A stretch of DNA of 64,000 bases from Pseudomonadota bacterium (lineage in GTDB: Bacteria; Desulfobacterota; Desulfobulbia; Desulfobulbales; Desulfocapsaceae), in assembly GCA_018821985.1 (NCBI GenBank), contig JAHJKP010000026.1:124001-188000 (forward strand), written 5' to 3'. This document shows positions 16,287-51,264 of the stretch, one piece after another. The notes under the pieces were generated by a model. That model saw only the letters and a program-made list of their open reading frames with translations, searched no databases and was not told where the DNA came from. The first letter of the stretch is position 1, and every line of letters begins with the position of its first letter. Position numbers and translations under genes: made by a program.

Positions 16287-16802
16287 ATGGATACAAAAAA
16301 ATCAAAAAATCCTGGGTCACGCTTGATTCCAGTCTTGCGGGAAGGAATTTGCGTGGTACAGATGGTCCTGTTTAAAGAACTGCGTTCCCTGTTGACGAGC
16401 AAGCACCCGGGCCGAGACCCTCTCTCGGTTTCCATGCTCACCGGAGCTATCACCAATGAGCTCTTCGGCACCGTGAACAGCGAAGAGAAATTCCAGGAGT
16501 TCCGCAGAACAAACCGGGCAGACATTGAACAAGAACTGCTCAGCCTGGCTCAAGAACTTCCATCCCTGACCGCAGCGCTCACCGATGCACTACGGATACA
16601 GACCCTCTGTGACAGCATGGAAGATAAAGACAGCGCAAAACTCCTCAACCATGCCGCTGAAATTGGCCTGCTGATACAAGCGCGAGAAGTACCCCTCCCT
16701 TCCACCTTTATGACCATGACACGTAGCCTTGGCGATGCCCATCAGCTGATTATTGCCCCGGCGGAGATAAGCCAAGAAGATGACCAGGGACTTGTCCAGT
16801 AA
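16287..16802 (+). CDS. Hypothetical protein cotranscribed with the DUF493 gene
   Basis: This 171-residue, soluble, mostly helical protein has no domain I recognise. Notable segments are VLREGICVVQMVLFKELR, ELFGTVNSEEKFQEFRR and a leucine-rich stretch near residues 80-105. GAGGAG eight bases upstream overlaps the stop of the DUF493 gene, which supports real translation and an operon. No signal peptide or cysteine motif is visible. I have no functional proposal. Confidence 0.65.
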   Translation: MDTKKSKNPGSRLIPVLREGICVVQMVLFKELRSLLTSKHPGRDPLSVSMLTGAITNELFGTVNSEEKFQEFRRTNRADIEQELLSLAQELPSLTAALTDALRIQTLCDSMEDKDSAKLLNHAAEIGLLIQAREVPLPSTFMTMTRSLGDAHQLIIAPAEISQEDDQGLVQ

Positions 16803-16944
16803 CGAAAGATAAAGAGTGATCCCTGTTACGGAGGAGGAGGAGGGAGCATCTTCAAAGAAGAAAAACGAAAAAAGATTTTATAAACATCTCCATGCCTACG
16901 TGCGAAAAGATACGTATTCAAAATCTTTTTACACCGAACAGTAC

Positions 16945-16984
16945 AATGCCCCATACGCTCCGAGAATAGACCGTATAGGGCATT
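16945..16984. repeat. Inverted repeat downstream of the chemoreceptor gene
   Basis: Thirteen-base arms (AATGCCCCATACG and CGTATAGGGCATT) enclose a 14-base loop. The single mismatch becomes a G-U pair on the minus strand, so the RNA hairpin fits best as the 3' end of the chemoreceptor transcript. No T-run follows directly, so termination is uncertain. Confidence 0.5.
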
Positions 16985-17001
16985 ACTTCCTGCCTTGTCG
17001 T

Positions 17002-19194
17002 TTATTTCACACCATGCCCACGCAGGAAAGAACTATATTTTTTATCTGTACCCTGTATATGATTAACCAGCCAGTTTTTGAGAAATGACATGAGCTCCAT
17101 GGAAAGCATGGCATTTCCTGACTTGAATTTTTTCTGAATATCCACAACCTGGGCCACCAGTTTCCGATGGAGCTCCACATGGGCCTTCTCGTCAGGATAT
17201 CCATACTGGGCAAACAGCTTTTCTTCGAGGGAAAAATGGGTGACCGTGTAGTCGATAAGCCTATCAAGGATCGCGCCCATCACACTATTGCTCTTTTTTA
17301 ACTTCATGGCCTTATGCAGTTCATTGATCATCCCCACCAGCTTCTTGTGCTGGTCATCAATCAGCTTGATATCCACGCTCAGGCTGTTACTCCATGGCAT
17401 GAGATCAGGGATACTGGCAGATGCGGCAGACACCGTGGAAGACGCCATCGGCCTTGACGTTGATGTTTCCACCTTCGTCCCCAGCCCACCACCTGCTGCC
17501 GCAACCATTTTAAAATGGGACACCAGGTTTTTAAGAGTCTCAGCAACATTAGCCAGCTCCTGGGCGCTTCCCTCTACGTCATGACCACTCTGGGAAAGGG
17601 AGCGGGAGACATTACTGACCTCGGTAATATCGCCGGCGATCTGACCCGCCACCATCGAACTCTGGGCCACATTTTCATTGACCTCACTGATCCCCTGAGC
17701 CGCCTGCAGGACACTTTCTGCAATCTCTGAAGTAGTGGCCGTCTGTTCTTCAACGGACTGGGCAATATCGGCCACAATCCCGTTCATCTGACTGATGACC
17801 TTGGTAATCTGCTCGATTTCACTGACAGTCTCGTTGGTTGAGCCCTGAATAGATTCAATCCTGTTTTTGATTTCTCCGGTTGCCGCCGCCGTCTGCTTGG
17901 CCAGTTCCTTAATCTCATTGGCCACCACAGCAAAGCCTTTGCCAGCCTCTCCGGCCCGGGCCGCCTCAATGGTGGCATTCAAGGCCAGCAGATTGGTCTG
18001 ATCCGATATCTCGGTGATGGCCTCAGTAACCTTGCTGATCTCAAGGGCAGCCCTCCCTAAAGCATCCACCTTTTCAGTGGAACTTTGGGCCAGGAGCACC
18101 GCGCCACTGGTAATCTCTTTGGCCTGCTCTGTTTTGGCAGCAATCTGATGAATGGTCGAACTGATCTCCTCGGCCGCCGTGGCCACGATATTGACATTGG
18201 TGGCGGCCTCCTCACTGGCCGCGGCCACCGAGTTCATATTGGCGCTCATCTCCTCGGTGGCTGCGGCCACCGAAGCAGAAAGCTCAGCTGAGTTGCCGGC
18301 CCCGGCCGACAGACTACGGGAAGTTGAGGTCAACTCCTGAGAGGAAGCAGCAAGGGTCGTCACCTCTGCTCCGATACCACCAATAATCTGACGCCACTGA
18401 TCAACCGTGGCAGTCAGGGTTTTGGCCAGGATCCCAATCTCATCTTTCTGACTTATCTCAAGCTGTCCCGTCAGATCGCCTTCGGCCAGTTTTTCAGTAA
18501 AGAGCACCATCTTTTTCAGACTGCCACTGATAATCCGAACGATGTTAAAACCGAAAACAATGCCAATCACCAGGGCCAAGGCCGTCAGAATCAGGATGAT
18601 CTGGATGGCGCTACGGGCGCCTTGTTCAGCCTGTTCATTCACAACCGTTGTTTTCTTACTCAGCTCCTCACCCATTTTCTGAAATATCGCGGAGACCTCT
18701 ACCAAGGCGCTTTGTGTTTTTTGACGAAAGACATCCTGCATGGCAGGCAAGGCCACCCCCTTGCTTTCCGCATTGGCCAGGAGCTGCTGCATCTCGGTCA
18801 CAGAGTCATGCAGCAAGGCATGGGGGGCCTCAAGCTCTTTCAGCTGCGAGGCCAGCTCGGGATACTTTTGTTCCGCCTCCTTGCGACCTTCACCATAGAG
18901 CCATTTCCCAAATTTGCACTTATGGTCATCTGTTTGCAGATCGAGGGTTGTCATGGAGGCATCCTGAAAGAATGTCGTAATCTTGCCCAGAAAACGAAGA
19001 TGATCAATCTCACGGTTGGCGAGTTCAGTATTCAACGCATTGACAGACAAGGCCTCATCCATGTGAGAACTCAGCTGGGACACCTTGAGCAAACCGACGC
19101 CACTAATTCCTACCATAAGCAGCAAGACAACACCCAAGGCCACACCAATCTTTATTCCAATCGACCAATTCTTCCAGTTCATCCTTTTCCCCAT
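17002..19194 (-). CDS. Chemoreceptor with CZB-like sensor and C-terminal hemerythrin
   Basis: This is a 730-residue methyl-accepting chemotaxis protein. Helix 1 is at ~13-35. The external part (36-195) has a His in [18 protein letters not shown] (93-101) and HALLH (125-129), a pattern like the zinc-binding CZB domain. Helix 2 (196-218) and HAMP follow, then a long coiled-coil signalling region whose hairpin tip reads [21 protein letters not shown]. From ~600 a complete bacteriohemerythrin follows: [31 protein letters not shown]-x-x-x-H in KAHVELHRK and HIQGTDKKY supply the diiron ligands. It probably couples O2, NO or redox state plus a zinc-linked signal to chemotaxis. Start at 19194 or the ATG at 19182. 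Confidence 0.93.
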
Positions 19195-35655: not shown

Positions 35656-35694
35656 GTCACCTGTCTCCTGCAATCGTCCCGTCACCTGTCTCCT
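35656..35694. repeat. Direct repeat at the ftsZ 3' end
   Basis: GTCACCTGTCTCCT occurs twice (35656-35669 and 35681-35694), 25 bases apart. The second copy reaches the ftsZ stop codon. This is the remainder of the spacer between ftsZ and the radical-SAM gene; I see no terminator. Confidence 0.5.
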
Positions 35695-36920
35695 CAATTT
35701 GCCTTTTTCCGAAGATACGTTGGAGTCTCCAGATAATCCTCATTCCAAGGCCGAGATTCCTTCTGACTGCGCCCCACCTCTTTACGGGATGAGGAAACAC
35801 CGAGGTTATCAAAACCTTCAAAATTAGATTGCAGTAGAGGAGTGACAAAAGTTGGACGCGGGTTGGCGGGAGCCGGCGCAACAGGGGTCTCCTGAGTGGC
35901 TGCAATCTTCACTGTCTTACGTGGTTCATCCATCAAAGTGATTGGCTCATTTTTCTTGACCACATTTCCTATTCCCGTCGCGATAACAGTAACCCGCAGT
36001 TCATCACCAAGGGTTTCATCGTAAAGTACTCCCAGAACAACTTTGGCATCCTCATCCACCTTACTTTGAATGAGAGCCGATACCTCCATATATTCAGCCA
36101 GAGTCAAACTCTCTTGTGTTGCCGAGACATTAATAATTAAGCCGCGGGCACCATCTATCCCCACATCTTCAAGGAGTTGATTATCAATGGCCCGTTTGGC
36201 CGCCTCGGTGGCTCTGTTTTCGCCAACAGCAGCGCCGGATCCCATGATGGCAGGCCCCACTTCCCGCATAACTGTGCGCAGATCTGCAAAATCAGCATTA
36301 ATCATTCCCGGCACATTGATCAGGTCGGTGATTCCCTTAACTGCCTGCAACAGTACAAGATCGGCCATGACGAGCATGTCGGCAAGCCTGGTATTTTTCT
36401 GCATCAGCGAGAGAAGCCTATCATTGGGAACGGTAATGATCGTATCTGCATATTTCCGCAGTTCTTCCCAACCTGCTTCAGCATTGCGCATGCGGGACTT
36501 ACCTTCAAAATGAAAGGGTTTGGTCACCACTGCCACAGTAAGCGCACCCATTTCTTTACTCACTTTAGCCACAACAGGGGCAGCACCTGTTCCGGTGCCA
36601 CCGCCAAGCCCAGCCGCAACAAAGACCATGTCACTGCCTTTAAGAGCCTTCTTGAGCTCCTCGAGCGATTCATGAGCGGCCTGGGCGCCGATATCAGGAT
36701 CAGTACCTGCCCCCAATCCTTTGGTGATACTGGGACCAATCTGCAGACAGATATCCGCCAGCGACTGGTTCAGGGCCTGCTTATCCGTATTGGCCACAAT
36801 AAACTCAACACCCTGCAGCTTATTGTTGACCATGGTGTTGATGGCATTCCCACCGCCACCGCCGACACCAATGACCTTTACCACTGCAACCCCTTCTGTT
36901 TCCGCCATTCTAAACGGCAT
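35694..36920 (-). CDS. ftsZ: Cell division GTPase FtsZ
   Basis: This 408-residue tubulin homologue polymerises into the Z-ring at midcell. The GTP-binding signature [10 protein letters not shown] is at residues 106-115, the T7 loop NADFADLR is near 207-214, and GVGGGGGNA is at 18-26. A proline-rich linker (~320-395) leads to a conserved C-terminal peptide [11 protein letters not shown], which in other bacteria docks FtsA and ZipA. AGGGGTGAG precedes the ATG. It is the last gene of the dcw cluster. All catalytic features are intact, so ring assembly should be normal despite the unusual upstream synthase genes. Confidence 0.98.
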
Positions 36921-37035: not shown

Positions 37036-38307
37036 TTACATGATTTTTTTCACCAACATCTTCATACGTCCAAACATTGAAGAGTCACCACTTATTCTCT
37101 GCACCCGATGTTTACGACCATACATGACCAGACCGACAGCAGTCGTACAGCGCGGGGTATGAACCTCTTCAACACGCCCTCCAATCTTCACCGGATAGCC
37201 GATCCGTACCGGCAAATCAAATATCTGCTCGGCAAGATCCACCAGATTGGCAAGTAAAGCGGTACCACCAGTAATGACTACCCCGCCGTGGATCTTATTT
37301 TTTTTCCCGGAGTGAATAAGTTCCTGGTTAACCATTTCCAGAATTTCCACTATACGGGCCTGCAAAATATCCACCAGGACCTTCTGGGTCACCTTACGTG
37401 GTTCCCGATCGCCTACAGTCGGCACGTCAACCACGTGATTCGGTTTGATCATAGAGGCAATGGCACTGCCGTAATCCTCCTTTAAGCGCTCAGCCTCCTG
37501 GAGTGGCGTCCTTAATCCCACCGACAGATCGTTGGTCAGGTTATGTCCACCAAGCCCTATTTCACAGGTGTGCCTTATGGTCCCGTCACAGAAAACTGCC
37601 AGATCCGTCGTGCCACCCCCGATATCAACAAGGGCCACCCCCAGTTCCATCTCATCGGCACTGAGCACGGCATAGGCTGAGGCGATGGATTCCAGCACCA
37701 TATCCAACACCTCCAGGCCTGCTTTCCGACAACAGGTATAAAGATTATGCACGGCAGCCATGTCAGCGGTCACAATGTGTACATTGGTAACGAGACGAAC
37801 CCCGGTCATCCCCAGGGGATTCTGAATTCCAGTATGATCATCCACCATATACTCCTGAGGCAGGACATGGATAATCTGCTGGTTTTCAGAGATCTTCACG
37901 GTCTTGGCCGCCACAATCACATCTTCAACATCCGCCTCTTTGATCTCTCTACCGTTAATGGCCAGAATTCCGGGACTGTTGAACCCTTTAATGTGATTAC
38001 CGGCAATCCCAACGTAGACAGTATGCAGTTCGCATCCGGCCGCCTCTTCCGCCTGCTCCACGGCCTGCCGTATAGACTTGACGGTGGACTCGATATTGAC
38101 CACAATCCCTTTTTTCAAACCCACTGAGGGCGCAGTACCGACACCGATGATATCCACCCCATCATCGAAGACCTCACCCACGACGCAGCATATCTTCGTG
38201 GTTCCAATATCGAGCCCAGCCACGACCTCACCTGGTGCCCGTTTCTCAGAATCCTGCTCAACCTCAACTACTGGTTCTATCTCATTCATTTCATTTATTT
38301 CATTCAT
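37036..38307 (-). CDS. ftsA: Cell division actin-like protein FtsA
   Basis: This 423-residue ATPase tethers FtsZ to the membrane. Actin-fold motifs are VAGLDIGTTKICCVVGE (~29-45), the 1C domain with VGIAGNHIKGFNSPG, ALVDIGGGTTDLAVF, the SHS2-type insert and VVITGGTALL. The C-terminal FGRMKMLVKKIM is a plausible amphipathic membrane-targeting helix. The N-terminus carries a micro-repeat (MNEINEMNEIE), so several ATG codons within 18 bases are possible starts. It begins six bases after the ftsQ stop. Confidence 0.96.
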   Translation of the reverse strand: MNEINEMNEIEPVVEVEQDSEKRAPGEVVAGLDIGTTKICCVVGEVFDDGVDIIGVGTAPSVGLKKGIVVNIESTVKSIRQAVEQAEEAAGCELHTVYVGIAGNHIKGFNSPGILAINGREIKEADVEDVIVAAKTVKISENQQIIHVLPQEYMVDDHTGIQNPLGMTGVRLVTNVHIVTADMAAVHNLYTCCRKAGLEVLDMVLESIASAYAVLSADEMELGVALVDIGGGTTDLAVFCDGTIRHTCEIGLGGHNLTNDLSVGLRTPLQEAERLKEDYGSAIASMIKPNHVVDVPTVGDREPRKVTQKVLVDILQARIVEILEMVNQELIHSGKKNKIHGGVVITGGTALLANLVDLAEQIFDLPVRIGYPVKIGGRVEEVHTPRCTTAVGLVMYGRKHRVQRISGDSSMFGRMKMLVKKIM

Positions 38308-38313
38308 CAGTTT

Positions 38314-39384
38314 TCAACCCGATCCGCTGTGTGCCACCAGCACCTTATTCTCCAAATAATCCATACGGATATACGCAACATCTGCAATGGTCATTCCCTG
38401 CTCTGTCTCTTTATACAAAATCTCCAACACTCTTTTTAAACGACTATATTTCGTTCTGACAGCACCGAAACCAAAATAAATGGGAAAGGGGTAATCCGCC
38501 AGATATATGGTCATCCCCGCATCTCGGTCAACATGGATCTCAGAAAGATTCTGGAGGGGAAGATTAGGATTATTTTGTCTGACAAGTTTGAGCAAGGTCA
38601 ATGCCTCACTGATCATCTCCGATCGACCGCCATCGCCACTTCCGCTATCCCTGTCTCGAACGGCATTAGACCTTCCCTGGCCGTTATCTTCCTTTGCCTC
38701 GAGGCCGGTTATAACCGGGAGATCCATATCCTGGCCCGGCTCAACCGGCGCAAACACAACTCCGCTCTTATCCAAATAAAAAAACTGCTTACCACCAGGG
38801 ACATCCTGAGCAATCAAGGCCTCAGCCGCATATTCCTTAATAGAGACTACAACCACATCGGGCCAGTCACGCTTAACCTCTACCGCCGCTATCCATGGGT
38901 GCGCTCTGAGAATGGCCGCAATATGTTCCGGATTAAGTCTGAGCAGACTGGCTTGGTACCTGATGCCGGTAAGCTCACGAATCAAGGCAGGAGAGGTCTT
39001 CCGACAACCGTTAATACTAATTTCCTGAATCTTGAAAATGTTCATGCCTGACACAGCATTCACCAAGGGTGAATAAGCCAGGAAGACTAAGGATACGACA
39101 AAAACCAGAAGGCATACGGGTATCAGCCCCCTCGGGGTCCTCCTTTTTGCCATAACGGGAACCCGATTCAAATCCTTACGTCTGGCCGATCGCTTAAACA
39201 GTGATCGTATCCTGCTGACTATCCCGCCACGTTTCTGATCTTGAACAGCAGACCTGGAAGTAAACACAGGTTGAGTCCCACGGCCCGCAATGCCACCACG
39301 AACACTTCTGTTCCTCTTCTTAGGTAAACGAAAGAGAGAACCTATATTTTTCAAGGCATTCAGCACGTTTTTTAAGCCCTTCAC
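38314..39384 (-). CDS. ftsQ: Cell division protein FtsQ/DivIB
   Basis: This 356-residue bitopic protein has a long basic cytoplasmic N-terminus (~1-88), one helix near 90-108 (LIPVCLLVFVVSLVFLAY), and a periplasmic POTRA domain starting FKIQEISINGCRKTSPALI. The beta domain with YLDKSGVVFAP follows. An insertion of ~30 polar residues (EDNGQGRSNAVRDRDSGSG) is unusual. In other bacteria FtsQ recruits FtsB/FtsL and hence FtsWI, which makes its partners here of special interest. It sits between murB and ftsA in normal dcw order. Confidence 0.9.
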   Translation of the reverse strand: MKGLKNVLNALKNIGSLFRLPKKRNRSVRGGIAGRGTQPVFTSRSAVQDQKRGGIVSRIRSLFKRSARRKDLNRVPVMAKRRTPRGLIPVCLLVFVVSLVFLAYSPLVNAVSGMNIFKIQEISINGCRKTSPALIRELTGIRYQASLLRLNPEHIAAILRAHPWIAAVEVKRDWPDVVVVSIKEYAAEALIAQDVPGGKQFFYLDKSGVVFAPVEPGQDMDLPVITGLEAKEDNGQGRSNAVRDRDSGSGDGGRSEMISEALTLLKLVRQNNPNLPLQNLSEIHVDRDAGMTIYLADYPFPIYFGFGAVRTKYSRLKRVLEILYKETEQGMTIADVAYIRMDYLENKVLVAHSGSG

Positions 39385-41723: not shown

Positions 41724-42884
41724 TCAGTTGGTTATCAGTTCCAAACAAACATCGACTATCCTTTCTGCGGCATCAGGCCGTGCCATGGAGTGCATGGCCT
41801 CGGCCATCTCCTGCAGCCGTCCAAGATTGCTGACAAGAGCAGCCAGGGCCTCTGCCAGTTTCCTGCCCGTCAGTTCCCGCTCCACTAAGACCACGGCCCC
41901 ACCACTGTCAGCATAATAGCGACCATTCCTGTATTGATGGTCATCAGCGGCAAAGGGATAAGGGATCAGCAGCGCAGGTTTTCCCAGAACTGCCAACTCG
42001 GCAAGGGTGGTGGCGCCAGCCCTTGAGACCAGCAAATCACTTTTACCATAAATCTCTGCCATATCGGTAAAAAAAGCTGCCACCGTGGCCTTGATTCCGG
42101 CCTGCTCATAGGCCAACCGCACCATTTCCTGATCCGCGGCGCCTGTCTGATGGATAACCTCTATCCCTGCTGGCAGGATCTTGCCATAATTGGTCAAGGC
42201 AGCCACCATCAGTTCATTGACCCGGTGCGCTCCCAAGCTGCCCCCCAGGATCAGAATTGTTACCTTATCACCGATTATCCTGGGCGGTCGCTCTTCCGCC
42301 ATCCCTGGAGCGTGCGCCACTGGGCCGTCCTTAGCCTGAGACTTCCCTGCCAGTTCCAGGATCTGACGACGGACAGGATTACCGGTCAACACCGTTTTTC
42401 CTGCCGGGAAAAAGGCCTCACTGCCGGGGAGTGAAAGACAGATCCTGGTGGCCAGGCCACCTAATTTTCTATTGGCTAACCCCGGCACCGAATTCTGTTC
42501 ATGAATCACGGTTGGAAGTCCCAGAATTTTTGCTGCAACCACCACCGGTCCCGTCACATAGCCGCCGACACCCACTACTAGATGCGGATGAAAACGGATG
42601 ATATGCCAGAGGGCCTCCACCAAGGAGAGCGGAAGTAGAACCAGGGCCTGAAGCAGAGCCAAGGCCCCCTTTCCCTTTAATCCCTGGCAATGGATGGTCC
42701 TGGTACTGAAGCCATAATGGGCAAGGCTGCTCTTATCCATCTTCCGGCGCGTTCCCACAAAAAGTATCTCGGTATCTGGAAAACGACGGCACATGGCCTC
42801 TGCTGTGGCAATGGCCGGGAAAAGATGTCCCCCGGTCCCACCACCGGTAAGCAGCAGCCGTATGGGTTCCCGCCTCTTCCCCAT
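41724..42884 (-). CDS. murG: Lipid II-forming GlcNAc transferase MurG
   Basis: This 386-residue peripheral membrane glycosyltransferase converts lipid I to lipid II. The G-loop TGGGTGGHLFPAIATAEA lies near residues 12-29, with GVGGYVTGP, HEQNSVPGLANR, ILGGSLGAHRVNE and SRAGATTLAELAVLGKPALLIPYPFA. The ATG at 42884 overlaps the murD stop as TGATG and gives the normal N-terminus; a longer frame to 42905 exists. In most bacteria ftsW lies between murD and murG, but here there is no room for it. Confidence 0.96.
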   Translation of the reverse strand: MGKRREPIRLLLTGGGTGGHLFPAIATAEAMCRRFPDTEILFVGTRRKMDKSSLAHYGFSTRTIHCQGLKGKGALALLQALVLLPLSLVEALWHIIRFHPHLVVGVGGYVTGPVVVAAKILGLPTVIHEQNSVPGLANRKLGGLATRICLSLPGSEAFFPAGKTVLTGNPVRRQILELAGKSQAKDGPVAHAPGMAEERPPRIIGDKVTILILGGSLGAHRVNELMVAALTNYGKILPAGIEVIHQTGAADQEMVRLAYEQAGIKATVAAFFTDMAEIYGKSDLLVSRAGATTLAELAVLGKPALLIPYPFAADDHQYRNGRYYADSGGAVVLVERELTGRKLAEALAALVSNLGRLQEMAEAMHSMARPDAAERIVDVCLELITN

Positions 42885-44326
42885 CAGGTACCACCATCCT
42901 GGCATGCCACAGGCCCTGACTGGTCAATCACCCTTTGTACTGCCGCCGCAAAGACCCGGCCCCGATGGCCATAATTCTCAAACATATCAAAACTGGCACA
43001 GGCAGGGGAAAGCAGCACCGTATCCCCAGCTCTGGCAATGGAAGCCGCCAGCAGCACCGCCTCTTCCATTGAGCAGGCCTTTCGCTGCTCCGTCACCCCT
43101 GCCAGGGCCTGGGCAATCAGCTCAGCGGCCTCACCGATCAGAATCAGACAGCGCACCTTGCGAGCGACACTCTCTTGCAGCAGGCTATAATCATCGCCCT
43201 TGTCACGGCCGCCGGCAATAAGGATCACGTTCCCCTTAAAATTTTCCAGGGCGCTGAGAACGGCTCCGGTATTAGTGGCCTTGGAGTCATCATAATAAGA
43301 GACCCCGGCAGCCTTCCCCACGAAGGCCATTCGATGAGCCGCCACCTGAAAGGCAGACAGACCCTGCACTATCCTCTCCTGCGTACAACCCAAGCTGCGG
43401 ACGGCAAGAATGGCAGCTGCACTATTCAATGCACCTGTGGCTGTATCAAGCTTGGAGCCCGTAAGGTCATAACGCTCTTCGCGTCCCTGCCACAAAAGCA
43501 TAACGCTATGATCTTCAATCCGCGCCTGACAGTCCCGGCCATGCCCGAAAAGCAGCTGCCGCTGTCCCCCACCAAGGCCCGGCAACATCTCTCGACAATA
43601 GTGATCATCACCGCTGAGAATTGCCGTGTCACTCTGTCCCTGCCCGGAAAAAATATTCATCTTGGCCGCTGCATAGCAATCCATGCTACCGTGGCGGTCC
43701 AGATGATCCGGGGTCACATTGAGTAGGATCGCCACATCGGCCTTAAAGTCCCCTGCTGCCTCCAACTGAAAACTTGACAGTTCAAGAACCAGCACATCAA
43801 TATCTTCAGGATTATTGAGATAATCAAAAAGCGATGTGCCGATATTGCCACCGACAAAAACCTTTTTCCCGGCCCCTTGCAGCAACTCGCCAATCAGGGC
43901 AGTCACAGTGGTCTTACCATTGGTGCCGGTGATGGCAACTACCGGTTTGTTGATGAGCGGCGCAGCCACAGCCAATTCACCCAGCACCGGAATTTTAAGG
44001 GCTCGAAGCTGCTGCAGGATCTCCAGATCCCGACTGATTCCGGGACTAACCAGAATTTTATCAGCCTGTCTGAGAAAGGCCAGGGTATGACCACCACACT
44101 CGTATTCCACCCCATATTCTGCCAAAAAGGCCAGATCTGCTGCCGGCAACAGATGAGCGGCCCTGGTGTCAGACACCAAAACCCTCACTCCGTGTAACGC
44201 CAGATAACGTACCGCGGCCCGGCCTGAGACTCCCAGCCCCATCACCGCGACGCAAGGAATGGACGCTCCCGGGATGGATGAAGAGGGAGCGTGACTGCCG
44301 ACTGCCTTGTTACCTTGCCTGGTCAT
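42884..44326 (-). CDS. murD: UDP-N-acetylmuramoylalanine-D-glutamate ligase
   Basis: This 480-residue Mur ligase adds D-Glu. Motifs are VMGLGVSGRAAVRYL, the ATP loop ITGTNGKTTVTAL, LELSSFQLE, NVTPDHLDRHGSM, YYDDSKATNTGAV and LSPACASFDMFENYGHRG. Its ATG overlaps the mraY stop (TGATG) and its own stop overlaps the murG start, so three genes are translationally linked. The N-terminus has a ~25-residue polar extension before the Rossmann fold. Confidence 0.96.
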   Translation of the reverse strand: MTRQGNKAVGSHAPSSSIPGASIPCVAVMGLGVSGRAAVRYLALHGVRVLVSDTRAAHLLPAADLAFLAEYGVEYECGGHTLAFLRQADKILVSPGISRDLEILQQLRALKIPVLGELAVAAPLINKPVVAITGTNGKTTVTALIGELLQGAGKKVFVGGNIGTSLFDYLNNPEDIDVLVLELSSFQLEAAGDFKADVAILLNVTPDHLDRHGSMDCYAAAKMNIFSGQGQSDTAILSGDDHYCREMLPGLGGGQRQLLFGHGRDCQARIEDHSVMLLWQGREERYDLTGSKLDTATGALNSAAAILAVRSLGCTQERIVQGLSAFQVAAHRMAFVGKAAGVSYYDDSKATNTGAVLSALENFKGNVILIAGGRDKGDDYSLLQESVARKVRCLILIGEAAELIAQALAGVTEQRKACSMEEAVLLAASIARAGDTVLLSPACASFDMFENYGHRGRVFAAAVQRVIDQSGPVACQDGGT

Positions 44327-45405
44327 CAACGCAGCTTCAAAGTGGCAACGGCAATAAGGCCCAGGATCACAGAAACAATCCAGAACCTGACCACCACCTT
44401 TGGTTCATGCCAGCCTTTTTTCTCAAAATGATGATGAAAAGGTGCCATAAGGAAGATCCGTTTGCCATTGGTCATCTTAAAATACCCCACCTGCAAGATG
44501 ACGGATAGCGCCTCCATAACAAAGATTCCACCGACAATGGCCAACAGAATCTCCTGTTTGATAATGATAGCCACCGAACCCAAGGCACCTCCCAAGGCCA
44601 GCGATCCAACGTCACCCATAAAGATCTGGGCTGGATAGGCATTAAACCACAGAAATCCAAGAGACGCCCCGACCATCGCCCCGCAAAAGATCGCCAGCTC
44701 GCCTGCTCCCGGCACAAAGGGAATTTGCAGATACTCCGCCAGCACGGTATGTCCGGCCAGATAAGAAAAGATAAGATAAACCGATCCGGAGATAACCGTT
44801 GGGCCAGTGGCAAGACCATCAAGACCGTCGGTAAGATTTACCGCATTCGAAGCTCCAACAATGACCACTACCGCAAAGACAACATAAAACCAGCCAAGAT
44901 CAGGATGAATATTTTTAAAAAAAGGCACACTTAACTGCCCGTCAAATCCTGGATGGAGAAGCACAAAAAGGCCAACCACGGAAGCACCGCCAATCTGCAG
45001 GATCAGTTTTCCTCTGGCACTCAGCCCTTTGCTGTTTTTCTTGCGCACCTTCTTCAGATCGTCAATTGCCCCAATCATGCCGAAAAACAGGGACACAAAG
45101 AGCAACAGCCACACCAATGAACTGTCCAGCCTGGCCCACAGCAGCGTCGAGCAGGTAATGGCAGAGAGAATCAGCACCCCACCCATGGTGGGCACTCCCT
45201 GCTTTGCCAGATGGGTTTCCGGCCCGTCATCCCGTACCACCTGTCCAATCTGAAAACGGCGCAGAGCCCTGATAAACATTGGTCCCAGGATAATCATCAG
45301 CAGAAAGGCAGTCACCGCGCCGCCGATGGAACGGACGGTGATATAGCGGAAGATATTAAAACCGCTGAAAGCCGTATGCAGTGGATAGAGAAGATGGTAA
45401 AGCAT
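44326..45405 (-). CDS. mraY: Phospho-MurNAc-pentapeptide translocase MraY
   Basis: This 359-residue polytopic inner-membrane enzyme (about ten helices) transfers phospho-MurNAc-pentapeptide to undecaprenyl phosphate to form lipid I. Signature segments are [64 protein letters not shown] and the His loop [15 protein letters not shown]. The length matches the E. coli protein. It lies 78 bases downstream of the murEF fusion. Confidence 0.97.
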
Positions 45406-45483: not shown

Positions 45484-48400
45484 CTACAAACTATCCTGCA
45501 ACTGTTCTACCACATCTTCAAGGTGCATCCCCCTTGAACCTTTGACCAACAACCAATCACCCGCCTGTAACTGACGCGCGGCCAGAAGCTCTTCAATCCA
45601 GGCCACCGCATCCTTCTTCTCCTGAAAGACCCTGATCCGCTGACTGTCCATGCCTGCCATTCTCGCCCCGGTGGCTGTCTCTGCCGCAAAACTGCCGATC
45701 AGGGCCAGATAATCAATGAGCTGACCTGCCGCATACCCTCCCACTTCCCGATGGGCCTCAGCGCTGGTGGGTCCCAGTTCCAGCATATCTCCCAGGATGG
45801 CCACCCGCCTTCCTTTACCCTGCTGAGCAAGGGTCGTAAGACCTGCCCGCATTGAGGCCGGATTGGCATTATAAGTATCATTGAGAATATACAAATCCCC
45901 CTTGCCTTTGACAATCTGCATTCGTTTGTCAGCAGGCTGAAATGCAGCAAGACCTGACGCAATATCTCCGATGCCGAGGCCTGCAGCATGGGCAATAGCC
46001 GCTGCAGCCACAGCATTGGAGATATTATGAACACCCGGGACATGCAGGGTCGCAGAGATTGTCTCCAACGCAATATGGAGGACAAAGGTCTGGGCACTCG
46101 TTCCCTCATTCCCTAAGTCAGAAGCCCAGACCTGAGGTCTGTGACGCATACCTTCTTCAGCTGCTGCATAAAAAACCTTTTTCTGACAATACTTTTCAGC
46201 ACAGTTCCGCACATGGGGATCATCCAGATTAATCACCAGAGTACTGTCTTCGCCACTTCCGGCAAAAAGCTCTTCCTTAGCTCGGGCAACCCCTTCGATG
46301 GAGTGCAGCCCCTCGAGATGCGCGGCATGGACATTGACAATACAGGCGATATCAGGGTCAGCAATACGGACAAGCCTGTCAATCTCACCTGGCCGGTTCA
46401 TCCCCATCTCAAGAATAGCAGCTCTGTGGCCAGGATGAATGGGCAAGAGGGAGAGAGGCAAGCCGATAAGATTATTGAAATTGCCTCTGGTCTTCAACAC
46501 CTGATCAAAAGACGCCTGAGTCACGGGATTCAACCCCTGCCAATGCTGTTCAAAGATCGCCGCAGTCATCTCCTTGACCGTAGTCTTGCCACAACTACCC
46601 GTAATCCCCACCACCAACGGCCCACTGACCTCCTTCATCACCTGCCGCCGATATGCGGCCAGGTCGCCCAAGGCCTGTAACGTATCATCCACCAACAGAC
46701 AGGGAATGGCAGGACGCGCCTCTAAAGGAGTTTCCCGGCGAATCACAAGACATCCTGCCCCGGCAGAGGCTACCTGTTTCAGAAAATCATGGCCGTCAAA
46801 CCTCTCTCCGGCCAGGGCCACAAAGATATCACCCGCGACCACTTTCCGGCTGTCGGTGACCATTGATCCAAGAGAAGTTATTCCCATCCTCTCTCCAATC
46901 AGCTCACCGTGAGCTGCGAGACGAAGATTTTCAAGTCTCCAGCTGGTCAGTCCTTTTTTGGCCTCAAGACTGTCATCAAAGAAACGCGTACCATCCGGAC
47001 CAAGCTGATACCGTTCATGCCCTTTTCCAGCAATAAGCACAATATCATCGACCGTGGCCGCTGCAATGGCCAAGGATATCGCCTGGGCACGATCATGAAG
47101 CACCAGAAATCCCTTTTCATCTCCGGCCGAAGCCATGAGCCAGGAAGGTTCCCGTTCTTCCAGATCCGATAAGCGGACACCGGAGACAATCTGACCCACA
47201 ATCTCCTGGGGTGATTCACCCCGGGGATTATCGTCGGTGACCAGTACCACATCGCTGCAACGACCGGCGATCTCACCCATGATGGCCCGTTTCCCCTTGT
47301 CCCGGTCACCGCCGCAGCCAAAGACACAGATCAATCTCCGATGCGGAAGCCGGGAAAGAGTTGCTAAAACCTTTTCCAGGGCATCCGGGGTATGGGCATA
47401 ATCAACAAACACCGCTGGCCGGAAGTGCCTTTCCTTTTCTGCCGCCATTATCCGCTGCAGGCGTCCGGGCGCCCCGGATGCCTGCCCCAGCATCATAGAC
47501 AAAGCTTGTACCTCTACTCCCAGGGCCAGGCCAATTCCCAACACGGTCAACAGGTTTGCCACATTAAAATCACCCACCAGAGAAGTCGTAATCTGGATTT
47601 CATCTTCGGAAGTATGCAGGGTTATGCTGGTGGAATCCAAACCTGACTGGACACTCGAAGGATAAATATCACCGTTCCCGCCACACTGCCATACCTGAGC
47701 GCCCTGAGCTGCACACAAATCTAGCAGTTGTTGCGTCCTTTTTTCTTCCTCAGGATCACGACCTGCTATCCGGGTAATAACAGCCTTACCGCTCTTTTTC
47801 AGATGATCACGAAACAGGAGGGCCTTGGCGGCAAAATAATCATCCATGTCCTGATGATAGTCCAGATGGTCACGCGAGAGATTGGTAAAGGCAACCACAT
47901 CAAATTGCAGATCTCCAAGACGGCGCTGGACCAGGGCGTGGGAGGAAACCTCCATGATCACATGGGTCACACCGGCATCTGCCATCTGCCGTAGAAGAGA
48001 CTGGAGCAAGAGTGGTTCAGGTGTCGTGAAAGGGGCAGGAATCTCAATATCCTGTCCCCTGGCATCACGATAGCGATAGTTAATCGTGCCGATAACCCCA
48101 ACCGCCAGACCCAGCTGCCTCAGGACACTCTCAAGGAGATAACTGACCGTGGTCTTGCCATTGGTGCCGGTGACACCAACCAGGGTCAATCCCTGGGCCG
48201 GCTGGCCATACATATTAGCTGCAATCTGCGCATAGGCCAGATGGCTGTCCGCAACTACAATCACACACTGACTACAATCAGCAAACTGCTCTGGTCTCAC
48301 CCGGCCTTCTTCAACAACCAATACCGCACAGCCACGAGCGAAGGAGGGCTTAGTGTCACTCGCTCCAGAAACCGCCCCAGCGGAAGTACGACCACTGGCC

Positions 48401-48630
48401 ATCACCTGCTCCAGATAGGCATGACCATCCGTCCGGCTTCCGGCAAGGGCCACAAAGAGTGACCCATCCTGTATTTTCCTGGAATCAATCGTTACATCAG
48501 AGACCACTATTCCGGTCGGCAGTGTTTTACCCAAAAGTGAATAAGTGACAGAAGCCAGAAGTGCCTCAAGCAAATATCCCTTGCAGTTACCCTCTTCAAC
48601 AAACTGCTTTTTGAGTCTTGCACTATCCAT
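45484..48630 (-). CDS. murEF: Fused MurE-MurF ligase
   Basis: The 1048-residue protein joins two successive Mur ligases. Residues 1-~565 are MurE: DSRKIQDGSLFVAL, ATP loop GVTGTNGKTT (152-161), EVSSHAL, FTNLSRDHLDYH and DDNPRGES (466-473). The DNPR motif selects meso-diaminopimelate. Residues ~566-1048 are MurF: DSRKVVAGDIFVALAGERFDG, GITGSCGKTTVKE (675-687), EMGMNRPGEI, NVHAAHLEGL, DTYNANPASM and LGDMLELG. Both active sites look complete. There is no stop or frameshift between them. The ATG at 48630 was preferred over a TTG at 48669; neither has a strong Shine-Dalgarno. Confidence 0.95.
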   Translation of the reverse strand: MDSARLKKQFVEEGNCKGYLLEALLASVTYSLLGKTLPTGIVVSDVTIDSRKIQDGSLFVALAGSRTDGHAYLEQVMASGRTSAGAVSGASDTKPSFARGCAVLVVEEGRVRPEQFADCSQCVIVVADSHLAYAQIAANMYGQPAQGLTLVGVTGTNGKTTVSYLLESVLRQLGLAVGVIGTINYRYRDARGQDIEIPAPFTTPEPLLLQSLLRQMADAGVTHVIMEVSSHALVQRRLGDLQFDVVAFTNLSRDHLDYHQDMDDYFAAKALLFRDHLKKSGKAVITRIAGRDPEEEKRTQQLLDLCAAQGAQVWQCGGNGDIYPSSVQSGLDSTSITLHTSEDEIQITTSLVGDFNVANLLTVLGIGLALGVEVQALSMMLGQASGAPGRLQRIMAAEKERHFRPAVFVDYAHTPDALEKVLATLSRLPHRRLICVFGCGGDRDKGKRAIMGEIAGRCSDVVLVTDDNPRGESPQEIVGQIVSGVRLSDLEEREPSWLMASAGDEKGFLVLHDRAQAISLAIAAATVDDIVLIAGKGHERYQLGPDGTRFFDDSLEAKKGLTSWRLENLRLAAHGELIGERMGITSLGSMVTDSRKVVAGDIFVALAGERFDGHDFLKQVASAGAGCLVIRRETPLEARPAIPCLLVDDTLQALGDLAAYRRQVMKEVSGPLVVGITGSCGKTTVKEMTAAIFEQHWQGLNPVTQASFDQVLKTRGNFNNLIGLPLSLLPIHPGHRAAILEMGMNRPGEIDRLVRIADPDIACIVNVHAAHLEGLHSIEGVARAKEELFAGSGEDSTLVINLDDPHVRNCAEKYCQKKVFYAAAEEGMRHRPQVWASDLGNEGTSAQTFVLHIALETISATLHVPGVHNISNAVAAAAIAHAAGLGIGDIASGLAAFQPADKRMQIVKGKGDLYILNDTYNANPASMRAGLTTLAQQGKGRRVAILGDMLELGPTSAEAHREVGGYAAGQLIDYLALIGSFAAETATGARMAGMDSQRIRVFQEKKDAVAWIEELLAARQLQAGDWLLVKGSRGMHLEDVVEQLQDSL

Positions 48631-48731
48631 TAAAAATGGTTGAAAGATAAAATTTAGAACCTTAATCAATCACCAAACACGCGTGAATGAGATTTTCAGT
48701 TAAGAGTGCTTTGGAACAAAGCTTCTGTCAT

Positions 48732-50726
48732 TTATTTTCTCAAGGCACCCTTTATTCGTTCAATTTTATTTTTTATATTGCCTTCGCTCATGGGTTGACC
48801 TTTACCAGTTATATTCTTCTCTACTTGTTCTTTGTTCTTCAAGGTGAGCAGACACTCTTTCACTCCATCAAGTGATACCCCTGCAGCCGGGCTCTGAGCC
48901 ACAACACGTCCTGTCCCCTGGATCCACACCTTTACATTCTTGTCCTGCAACAAACGCAAGGCCCGCCTCAAACTCATACCGGAAAGGTCAGGCATAAGTG
49001 GATGATGCTGCTCAAGCATGGTTTCCAGCCCGACCGGAACTTTTTTCTCTTGTTCCTGCTGATAATTAATATCTTTCCTTTCAGACTTAGTCATCATATC
49101 AGAAAGATTTTTATGAACCTGCTGCAGTGCCACCATCGACGGCAGGGTCTTCCCAGCCGGCCCGACTAGATCAAACACATCTTTTGCTGAGGCAATGGAT
49201 GGCTCCAGGTAGGGCTGACGCACCATCACCATAAGAATCAGTTCCGGTTTGTCTGCCGGCAGCAAGGCAAACATCATTCTGGTTCTGAGATATTCGCCAT
49301 TTTTACCAACCGGCTGAAAAGAGAGTCCTTGAGCATCAACAAAAACTGAATCAAGCACCCCTTTATGCCCCTGGGCCTTAAACAATCTCCATGTTTCTGC
49401 TGTTGCCGGATGCGCTATCAGCCCACGTACTTCACCGCCCCCGTCCTCTCTGGCTCCTACGGCAGCAGGACTTCCTTGTCCATCACCTGGTGCAGAAGAT
49501 CTGAAAAAGTACTCGCGGGCACCGTTCCGCTCAAGGATGCGGTCAAGCACATGCGGCAAGACCTGATGGCCACCATTCAACAAAAAGTTCAAACCAAGAA
49601 GTATCTGCACGGGCGTTGCTTTCAGCGGCACGGTTCCCATTTCACTTTCCGGGGCAACAGCTTTTTTTTCAGTCCCGCCGACATCAGGATGAACATCCTG
49701 TGTTGAAAAATCAAGATCCGGCTCAGCAGTCAAGCCCAACCGTTGCCACAAACGAAGTTCACTTCCGCTGTCAACAGATCCTGCCGTTACACTCCAAGGG
49801 TAGATCTGCTTCTCCTGCTGCCAATCGGCCTGAAGCAAAGCCGATTCGTGAAAAAAACTCCTTATTTCACGAGGAATAACAACAGGTTCAAAGAGGATAT
49901 TGGCAAGATTCTGCTTCTTATATTGATAAAATAAATTCGGGTCGTAGGAGGGGAAATTTGCAGTGGCAACGATGGCACCCGTCTCTGTCTCCATGAGAAG
50001 AGCTACAATCTCCGCATCCTCATGCACCGCACCAAGCGCCGTCACGTATTTTTCAAGAAAATCCTGTATTTTCAGATCGATAGTCAAGACAAGATGTTGA
50101 CCACTGATACCGGTCTTATAATGGCCCGCCAAATCGATATGAGGAAAATCATCCCGACTGATACTGGCCTGATCAAGGAGACGATTATAATAATGCTCCA
50201 CACCGGCCAATCCCATATTCCGATCGGCAAAACCAATCACATGGGCGGCAATACTCTTATACGGATAATAACGAACTTGTTCCCGATGGAGAAAGACACC
50301 CGGAAGATGAAGATCCGCCACGGCCTTTTCTTCTTCCAGGCTGATATCTTTTGCCAACCAGATCCGCTGTGCATCCTTATCCAAAAGGGCCAGCAGCTCT
50401 TGCTCATTCATACCCAGAGCTGTGGCAAGCTGCCCGGCACTGCCATGCACATCTTCAAGCTCTCTGGGTCTTACATAGAGAGAAACCCGGTCAAGTGACA
50501 AGGCCAGTTCCTTGAAGCTCCTGTCATAAATCGTCCCGCGCCCATTTTTTTTCTTATCTGTCGCCTGCTCCTGCCCGGAAAACATCTTGCAGGCAAGGCC
50601 TGTAAGCTCCTGCCAATACAAAGCAGTACCAGTTACAACTCCTGCGACGACAACCAGGGCCATACCCAAAACCGCCAACCCGCTTCGTCCGCTCCTTTTT
50701 CCCCTCCGACGCGACTGGATGACCAT
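48732..50726 (-). CDS. ftsI: FtsI-like class B penicillin-binding protein lacking catalytic motifs
   Basis: This 664-residue protein has a basic N-terminus, one helix (17-39), a PBP-dimer domain (GRGTIYDRSFKELALS 62-77, YYPYKSIAAHVIGFADRNMG 153-172), HLVLTIDLKIQ (211-221), SYDPN (260-264) and LKATPVQILLGLNFLLNGG (368-386). These are FtsI landmarks, and dcw position agrees. Where EPGSTFK should hold the catalytic Ser and Lys, the sequence is EPVVIPR (280-286). No S-x-N follows, and KTGT is replaced by KNGE (475-478), with ~35 residues missing from the core. One PASTA domain (574-632) follows. It is very unlikely to be a transpeptidase; a structural divisome role is inferred. Confidence 0.85.
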   Translation of the reverse strand: MVIQSRRRGKRSGRSGLAVLGMALVVVAGVVTGTALYWQELTGLACKMFSGQEQATDKKKNGRGTIYDRSFKELALSLDRVSLYVRPRELEDVHGSAGQLATALGMNEQELLALLDKDAQRIWLAKDISLEEEKAVADLHLPGVFLHREQVRYYPYKSIAAHVIGFADRNMGLAGVEHYYNRLLDQASISRDDFPHIDLAGHYKTGISGQHLVLTIDLKIQDFLEKYVTALGAVHEDAEIVALLMETETGAIVATANFPSYDPNLFYQYKKQNLANILFEPVVIPREIRSFFHESALLQADWQQEKQIYPWSVTAGSVDSGSELRLWQRLGLTAEPDLDFSTQDVHPDVGGTEKKAVAPESEMGTVPLKATPVQILLGLNFLLNGGHQVLPHVLDRILERNGAREYFFRSSAPGDGQGSPAAVGAREDGGGEVRGLIAHPATAETWRLFKAQGHKGVLDSVFVDAQGLSFQPVGKNGEYLRTRMMFALLPADKPELILMVMVRQPYLEPSIASAKDVFDLVGPAGKTLPSMVALQQVHKNLSDMMTKSERKDINYQQEQEKKVPVGLETMLEQHHPLMPDLSGMSLRRALRLLQDKNVKVWIQGTGRVVAQSPAAGVSLDGVKECLLTLKNKEQVEKNITGKGQPMSEGNIKNKIERIKGALRK

Positions 50727-50843: not shown

Positions 50844-51206
50844 CTAAAAACGGGTAACCTGCTCTTTTCCAGGGACATAGAGAGCGAGCTGACTTGCCGC
50901 TCTCTTATTGAGATACTCAGGGGAATAAAGACGGGCCCGCTCAGCCCTGAGCTTGATATGCTCATCCATAAGGAGATAACGACCTTGCTCTGCATCCTCA
51001 AGAGCTACGGCTATCCTGCCCGCAGAGGATGACAGCCAGAAATTCGCCAGAAGAAGTAACGGACAGAAAAAAAGCAGCACCTTGCCTACTGCCATCCACA
51101 ATATTTTCGGACCGAGCACACCAAGGGCCTTTTGCCGTAAGTGCTGACGCATTGACGATGGCATCATGGGACGGCTATATGTTTGGATAGATTGATTGAT
51201 AAACAT
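50844..51206 (-). CDS. ftsL: FtsL-like cell division protein
   Basis: This 120-residue bitopic protein has a basic cytoplasmic tail, one helix near residues 36-58 (GKVLLFFCPLLLLANFWL), then a periplasmic heptad-like coiled coil (AGRIAVALEDAEQGRYLL...HIKLRAERARL) and a short conserved end. Size, topology and position between rsmH and ftsI support FtsL, which with FtsB and FtsQ activates FtsWI; sequence alone would not. GGAGG lies eight bases before this ATG, so the longer frame to 51239 is rejected. Confidence 0.8.
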   Translation of the reverse strand: MFINQSIQTYSRPMMPSSMRQHLRQKALGVLGPKILWMAVGKVLLFFCPLLLLANFWLSSSAGRIAVALEDAEQGRYLLMDEHIKLRAERARLYSPEYLNKRAASQLALYVPGKEQVTRF

Positions 51207-51264
51207 AGTACGCTCCTCCGTTGATTTCTCAAAAAACATTACGATTACGATCAGGCTCAGACTA

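Follow-up and report, generated by a model that had tools for sequence, protein, structure and literature searches.

An apparently inactive FtsI kept without FtsW in the order Desulfobulbales and in other lineages of its phylum

The gene in the ftsI slot of the window, the whole 64,000-nucleotide stretch of Desulfobulbales DNA analysed here, is predicted to encode an FtsI that has lost its catalytic motifs, and the genome that it comes from appears to lack FtsW altogether. The earlier note on this DNA had treated the dead FtsI as a curiosity of one genome. Dead FtsI together with missing FtsW is instead a trait of the order members examined, and the loss of ftsW goes beyond what that note contained. 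We consider it probable that FtsI has here turned into a pseudo-enzyme that acts as a non-catalytic subunit of the divisome, the septal wall being made most likely by a class A PBP. Families, genomes and loci are labelled f, G and L throughout.

Results

A divergent FtsI in the ftsI slot

The frame in the ftsI slot starts with ATG and runs through 664 codons without interruption. Its parts are as follows.

48732..50726, minus strand: ftsI-slot gene, predicted catalytically dead FtsI, 664 aa (open frame, Pfam, alignment, profiles)
50613..50678, minus strand: hydrophobic N-terminal segment, presumed membrane anchor, about residues 17-38 (sequence by eye)
50157..50543, minus strand: pedestal or PBP_dimer region, residues 62-190 (Pfam, domain alignment)
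49152..50105, minus strand: degenerate transpeptidase domain, about residues 208-525 (Pfam, alignment, profiles)
49869..49889, minus strand: EPVVIPR at the EPGSxxK site, residues 280-286, without catalytic serine or lysine (alignment)
49293..49304, minus strand: KNGE, residue 475, just beyond the place of KTGT, with KTG absent there (alignment, profiles)
48831..49001, minus strand: PASTA domain, residues 576-632 (Pfam, domain alignment)

Pfam recognised PBP_dimer at residues 62-167 (47 bits; curated cut-off 24.4) and PASTA at residues 578-618 (35.5 bits), and the earlier description of an intact 664-codon frame with a PASTA domain was confirmed by these matches and the open frame. Only positions 2-38 of the 299 in the Transpeptidase model were matched (28.9 bits). 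The NCBIfam FtsI model NF011685 gave 75.1 bits, over residues 60-277 only, and its cut-off of 737 was not reached; the relatives of the protein in NCBIfam and the PDB were of the SpoVD, PBP2 and FtsI types and matched mainly its N-terminal half. Compared by hhalign with 12 live FtsI of the phylum, a profile of 31 dead FtsI (the window's own and those of its genus and family) aligned over the whole length (E 5e-100, probability 100%), and a profile of 21 order proteins gave E 5e-127. An AlphaFold2 model from ten genus sequences had a mean pLDDT of 31.6 and a pTM of 0.25. The position in the dcw cluster between mraW/ftsL and murE, the full-length homology and the PBP_dimer score indicate that the gene is the true FtsI of its lineage, orthologous to live FtsI. 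The first reading, an FtsI-like protein in the ftsI slot, is borne out by the dcw neighbours and the full-length profile match.

The catalytic motifs are missing at the active site

The motif alignment comprised 70 proteins, 58 from FtsW-less lineages and 12 live FtsI (L109-L120) from FtsW-bearing genomes. All three motifs (SxxK, SxN and KTG) were missing at the active-site columns in 58/58 proteins of the FtsW-less lineages, and EPGSxxK, SSN and KTGT were kept in 12/12 FtsI from FtsW-bearing genomes. Left out of the alignment were L012 (in-frame stop), L064, L066 and L067 (short frames), L070 and L071 (split or partial), L072 (MrdA), the stubs L136-L149, and the duplicates L007, L037-L047 and L123-L132; SxxK was absent at the active site in the left-out FtsI frames too, as judged by eye.

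In the window protein, EPVVIPR stands for EPGSTFK, as had been read from the sequence and as the alignment with live FtsI now confirms, and S-x-N occurs nowhere in the protein, again as first read. The proposed replacement of KTGT by KNGE needs a small correction that leaves the conclusion unchanged: KTG is indeed absent there, but KNGE is found some residues beyond the KTG column. The sole S-x-x-K (residue 548) and the sole K-T/S-G (residue 204) of the protein are far from the active-site columns. Displaced but intact motifs were considered and rejected: the SxxK strings that the protein and its relatives contain all lie outside the active-site column. We also rejected an assembly or sequencing artefact, against which the earlier note had called for a comparison with close relatives: the motifs are likewise lost in relatives of 90%, 84% and 83% identity that come from separate assemblies. 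Dead FtsI is found in single-contig genomes as well (G020, G028, G030, G040, G047, G324 and G365).

The absence of SxxK, SxN and KTG in the alignment supports the original proposal of a dead FtsI, and we predict that the window protein is catalytically dead. It resembles FtsI/PBP3 in its dcw position, hydrophobic N-terminus, pedestal, transpeptidase-derived domain, PASTA domain and full-length profile match, and differs from it in having neither the three motifs nor an FtsW partner.

Purifying selection acts on dead ftsI, and constraint has shifted between domains

Against relatives at 90%, 84%, 83% and 75% identity, dN/dS was 0.29, 0.23, 0.24 and 0.19 for the whole dead ftsI and 0.30, 0.29, 0.29 and 0.17 for the degenerate domain. 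For the first three of these relatives the values were 0.21 in murE-murF, 0.24-0.37 in the ftsL-position ORF and 0.09-0.11 in mraW. The dead ftsI is under purifying selection. A pseudogene was rejected, since there is neither a broken frame nor neutral dN/dS (0.19-0.29), and the earlier statement that the gene is under selection as a protein and not decaying holds on the same two grounds.

Mean pairwise identity was compared among dead FtsI of the family (18 proteins) and of the order (21 proteins) and among 12 live FtsI of wider taxonomic spread. It was 0.26 (family) and 0.22 (order) against 0.45 (live) in the transpeptidase region, 0.46 and 0.40 against 0.36 in the pedestal, and 0.46 and 0.45 against 0.34 in PASTA; because the taxonomic spreads differ, weight attaches to the reversal in domain ranking and not to any single value. 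Constraint has moved away from the transpeptidase part in dead FtsI.

Two alternatives bear on these values. The gene could be a slowly decaying relic, kept for translational coupling in the operon or because deletion is rare, and it would then be natural that the protein is shortened by degrees across lineages, that a few genomes (G001, G029 and G030) have stop or split frames, and that constraint is weaker than on mraW. We judge this very improbable, as dN/dS of about 0.2-0.3 lies near that of murE-murF and ftsL, most relatives have one open frame, and pedestal and PASTA are conserved. The protein could also have remained an enzyme whose catalytic residues are displaced or non-canonical, given that some transpeptidase-like sequence remains, but there is no conserved Ser or Lys at the site, no S-x-x-K is invariant there within the genus, and the mean pairwise identity of the region is 0.22-0.26; we give this account practically no credence.

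FtsW is absent from the dcw cluster and from the SEDS repertoire

The dcw genes of the window follow the order mraZ, mraW, ftsL-position ORF, ftsI slot, murE-murF, mraY, murD, murG, murC, murB, ftsQ, ftsA, ftsZ. Those that matter here, besides the ftsI slot, are listed below.

50844..51239, minus strand: ftsL-position ORF, 131 aa (position)
42884..44329, minus strand: murD, its 3' end overlapping murG
41724..42905, minus strand: murG
38314..39384, minus strand: ftsQ (POTRA_1 and FtsQ_DivIB_C)
37036..38307, minus strand: presumably ftsA (sequence and position)
35694..36920, minus strand: presumably ftsZ (sequence and position)

Since murD overlaps murG, the window leaves no room for ftsW. Read gene by gene, 11 dcw loci of the phylum had ftsW between murD and murG, in an interval of 1126-1296 nt, together with a live FtsI; the twelfth FtsW-bearing locus, L110, is cut by a contig end, and its genome has two SEDS proteins. 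Wherever an FtsW-less dcw locus had a visible ftsI slot, FtsI was dead. In L124, murD and murG are 39 nt apart by their frames, without a SEDS match.

The sole SEDS protein of the source genome is RodA (409.5 bits; cut-off 336.7). The ftsW model gave it 296.8 bits, under the cut-off of 337.5, and its gene adjoins mrdA. Among 58 relatives, the source genome included, 54 had exactly one SEDS and none had two; the two rows of G047 are one split RodA, and three genomes had none, two of these three being <90% complete. A phylum-wide draw of 247 genomes contained 11 order members, of which nine had one SEDS, G047 the split one and G157 none. By hand count, 187 of the other 236 genomes had two or more, 47 had one and two had none, and from the 187 with at least two it follows that a second SEDS is normally detected by this search. 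With RodA as the single SEDS and no ftsW between murD and murG, no FtsW partner for an FtsW-FtsI synthase was found encoded, and FtsW appears to be missing from the source genome.

Three further observations concern the neighbouring genes. In L150 (G047, single-contig), rodA is split at 16656-17785, the reading frame shifting near a C run through either a real change or a sequencing error. The genes murE and murF form one fused 1061-aa frame (window 45484-48669, minus strand); the fusion is also present in the loci of f1, f4, f12, f66, f76, f91 and f86, and murE and murF are unfused in the loci read from f3, f5, f14, f15, f28, f72, f100, f75, f40, f35, f39 and f65. The ORF at 50844..51239, which from its position we take to be ftsL, gave no match in Pfam or NCBIfam, and short ORFs occupy the ftsL position ahead of the ftsI stub in seven other loci inspected. 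A published survey reports ftsL missing in many Desulfobulbaceae (PMC7873302), for which divergence is perhaps the cause; the legend of its table marks fused genes.

Dead FtsI extends beyond the order and is reduced to stubs in some lineages

The dcw locus was read in fourteen families of the phylum that lie outside the order and include single-SEDS members, and in 12 of them ftsW was absent from its slot and the ftsI-slot protein was dead. For f86, the contig of L137 stops before murG, and the ftsW gap is visible in the other locus, L149. G117 (f59) gave no mraW match, which places its dcw locus outside the count. G227, of f65 and with its dcw locus unread, had two SEDS matches, one of them a full RodA beside MrdA (L156); the second may be FtsW, a duplicate or contamination. 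Single SEDS also occur in genomes of mostly two-SEDS families, for example G058, G072, G102, G119 and G147. The families f29 and f94 (L119, L120 and L109) have neither MreB, MrdA-type PBPs nor a second SEDS and have kept live FtsI and FtsW, a pattern that is the mirror image of the order.

The open frame in the ftsI slot measured 643 aa in f28, 526-569 aa in f66, f72, f76, f91 and f100, 544-553 aa in f86, 453-457 aa in f75, 412-440 aa in f40, 334-340 aa in f39, 307-329 aa in f65 and 248-267 aa in f35. Some lineages have eroded FtsI to a membrane stub of 250-330 aa. In L131 (G030, single-contig), the dead ftsI is split into frames of 240 and 438 aa, and murB is split too. Profiles compared with live FtsI gave E 2.9e-24 for f75/f40, a pedestal match (E 2.9e-10) and no PASTA match for f39, and a match by PASTA only (E 1.7e-10) for f35/f65, whose stubs have a hydrophobic N-terminus by eye. 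When five f35/f65 stubs were scanned singly with Pfam, PASTA was above the cut-off in two, below it in two and unmatched in one. PASTA was missing from the one protein scanned of each of f39 and f40, and inspection by eye showed the same loss for f66 and f91.

These reductions bear on the possibility that dead FtsI is a sensor or regulator that uses its PASTA domain to detect lipid II or nascent wall and so gates the septal enzyme. PASTA is among its best conserved parts, and five f35/f65 stubs that have lost nearly all else match live FtsI through it. Live FtsI has PASTA too, however, only 2/5 of those stubs carry it over the cut-off, and f39, f40, f66 and f91 have lost it; we regard a sensor as improbable. 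The earlier note had suggested a structural or lipid-II-sensing role. The second half of that suggestion is unsupported, PASTA being present also in live FtsI of the phylum and lost in some FtsW-less lineages. The first half appears to fit best, because the gene and a hydrophobic stretch at the N-terminus persist even in lineages that have lost most of the protein. Common to all FtsW-less lineages are the gene slot and the hydrophobic N-terminus, and this is our main argument for a structural role.

In f35/f65 (L141, L143, L144, L146 and L147), an ORF of 261-265 aa with many hydrophobic segments lies between murD and murG. By hhalign it matched FtsW with E 0.0034 and a probability of 9.5%, RodA with E 0.34 and MraY with E 0.36; Pfam gave no FtsW match in the three of five ORFs scanned. 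It may be a degenerate FtsW, and we treat this as a lead only. In an IQ-TREE tree of seven dcw proteins (41 rows), most FtsW-less lineages formed one clade, with f35/f65 apart. The FtsW state would have to change three times on this tree, a single FtsW-less clade was not rejected (AU p = 0.0995), and support for the placement of f28 was weak (0.20). Between one and three losses of FtsW are possible.

Candidate septal enzymes

The source genome is 99.85% complete and has two PBP_dimer proteins, an intact MrdA and the dead FtsI. A second live FtsI elsewhere in it was rejected, the only other class B PBP being MrdA, and the genome search that the earlier note had proposed for another intact class B PBP leaves the window gene as the sole FtsI. 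Exactly two PBP_dimer matches were obtained in 142/145 order genomes at least 90% complete, and from those read we infer that the second match is dead FtsI in all 142. The other three, G041, G157 and G360, had one; in G041, FtsI was found only as a C-terminal fragment. SEDS, MrdA and MreB were not matched in G157 (99% complete), nor MrdA, MreB and PF00912 in G360 (90% complete), and polA was not matched in either genome, in a search that had no positive control. In five relatives polA flanks rodA, and its absence from G157 and G360 hints at missing contigs.

The source genome has three further transpeptidase-domain proteins, all of them class A PBPs. One is a PBP1B with UB2H (838 bits, above cut-off), another is a PBP1A-family protein above cut-off, and the third, a longer one, is below all cut-offs. 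Catalytic motifs are legible by eye in all three. The source genome has intact class A PBPs and no live FtsW/FtsI pair, and PF00912 was found in 30/31 genomes from FtsW-less lineages, as a single copy in 12.

Almost all of these genomes have RodA-MrdA just as well, and the pair could make both side wall and septum, with dead FtsI (together with FtsQ and FtsL) as the adaptor that brings it to the septum. Both proteins are intact and their genes adjoin in the source genome, no order genome searched has more than one SEDS, MreB is strong in 37/42 genomes, and the pedestal, which is the part of FtsI that touches the SEDS partner in known complexes, is better kept than the transpeptidase part. In the f35/f65 stubs, by contrast, the pedestal is gone or beyond recognition, the match to live FtsI being by PASTA only. 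Clostridioides difficile, with a similar toolkit, also speaks against this division of labour, for there RodA-PBP2 is reported to elongate the cell and a class A PBP to divide it (PMC10693644). We hold the RodA-MrdA arrangement to be a serious candidate and nonetheless unlikely.

Septum synthesis by a bifunctional class A PBP is what we consider most likely, by analogy with C. difficile, which is also without FtsW-FtsI and divides in this way. Dead FtsI would remain part of the divisome, kept beside FtsL and FtsQ by its membrane helix and pedestal, and would there recruit or regulate the real septum-building enzyme. After FtsW was lost, the transpeptidase half would have drifted and the scaffold half would have stayed.

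Discussion

The diderm bacteria studied here are not known to sporulate. In C. difficile, the canonical FtsW/FtsI pair is likewise reported absent, with RodA-PBP2 and a class A PBP remaining (PMC10693644). A second report has PBP1 mediating division in this species and PBP3 binding PBP1 and promoting septum synthesis without its own catalysis, so that a class B PBP can act non-catalytically there as well (PMC12539705). The two cases differ in the dcw cluster, which in C. difficile is described as encoding SpoVE and SpoVD, sporulation enzymes, whereas the cluster studied here has lost ftsW and encodes a dead FtsI. Bacillus subtilis is reported to divide with an inactive PBP2B if PBP3 is present, PBP2B having a structural role independent of catalysis (PMC5656894). 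The S309A form of PBP2B is thus, like the window protein, a catalytically dead septal class B PBP, and one that supports division; unlike it, it is a laboratory mutation backed by PBP3, whereas here the dead form occurs naturally, with MrdA as the sole further class B PBP found. In Escherichia coli, PBP1b is reported to be repressed by FtsBLQ (PMC6325244).

The closest precedent is a report on cable bacteria and Desulfobulbus, in which ftsW, ftsN and zipA are given as absent in two Ca. Electrothrix and two Desulfobulbus genomes (PMC7873302). It agrees with our results in the absence of ftsW from those four Desulfobulbaceae genomes. It differs in that its passages on the divisome describe septal synthesis by FtsI activity, taking FtsI as a working enzyme and making no mention there of a dead active site. 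The absence of ftsW in four Desulfobulbaceae was accordingly known from that report, and the dead FtsI active site and the wider spread appear to be new. Among titles and abstract openings of the open-licence PMC literature, no report of a dead FtsI in these bacteria was found.

The FtsW-FtsI pair is regarded as the central septal synthase in bacteria with a cell wall and was long held to be universal among them. C. difficile is a reported exception to this rule, and the order and other lineages of the phylum studied here look naturally free of FtsWI. As a tentative account, which we would put at somewhat short of an even chance taken as a whole, a large part of this diderm phylum would have given up FtsW-FtsI, kept the corpse of FtsI for structural purposes and handed septal synthesis to class A PBPs; the corpse would have been pared down lineage by lineage, at the extreme to an anchor and PASTA, and the ORF in the FtsW slot of f35/f65 would maybe be the corpse of FtsW. 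With a dead FtsI under selection, it is evolution, and not mutation, that sets the structural and the catalytic role of FtsI apart. Division in these bacteria would be predicted to tolerate FtsI-specific beta-lactams, and the question of what FtsI is used for besides cross-linking becomes directly testable.
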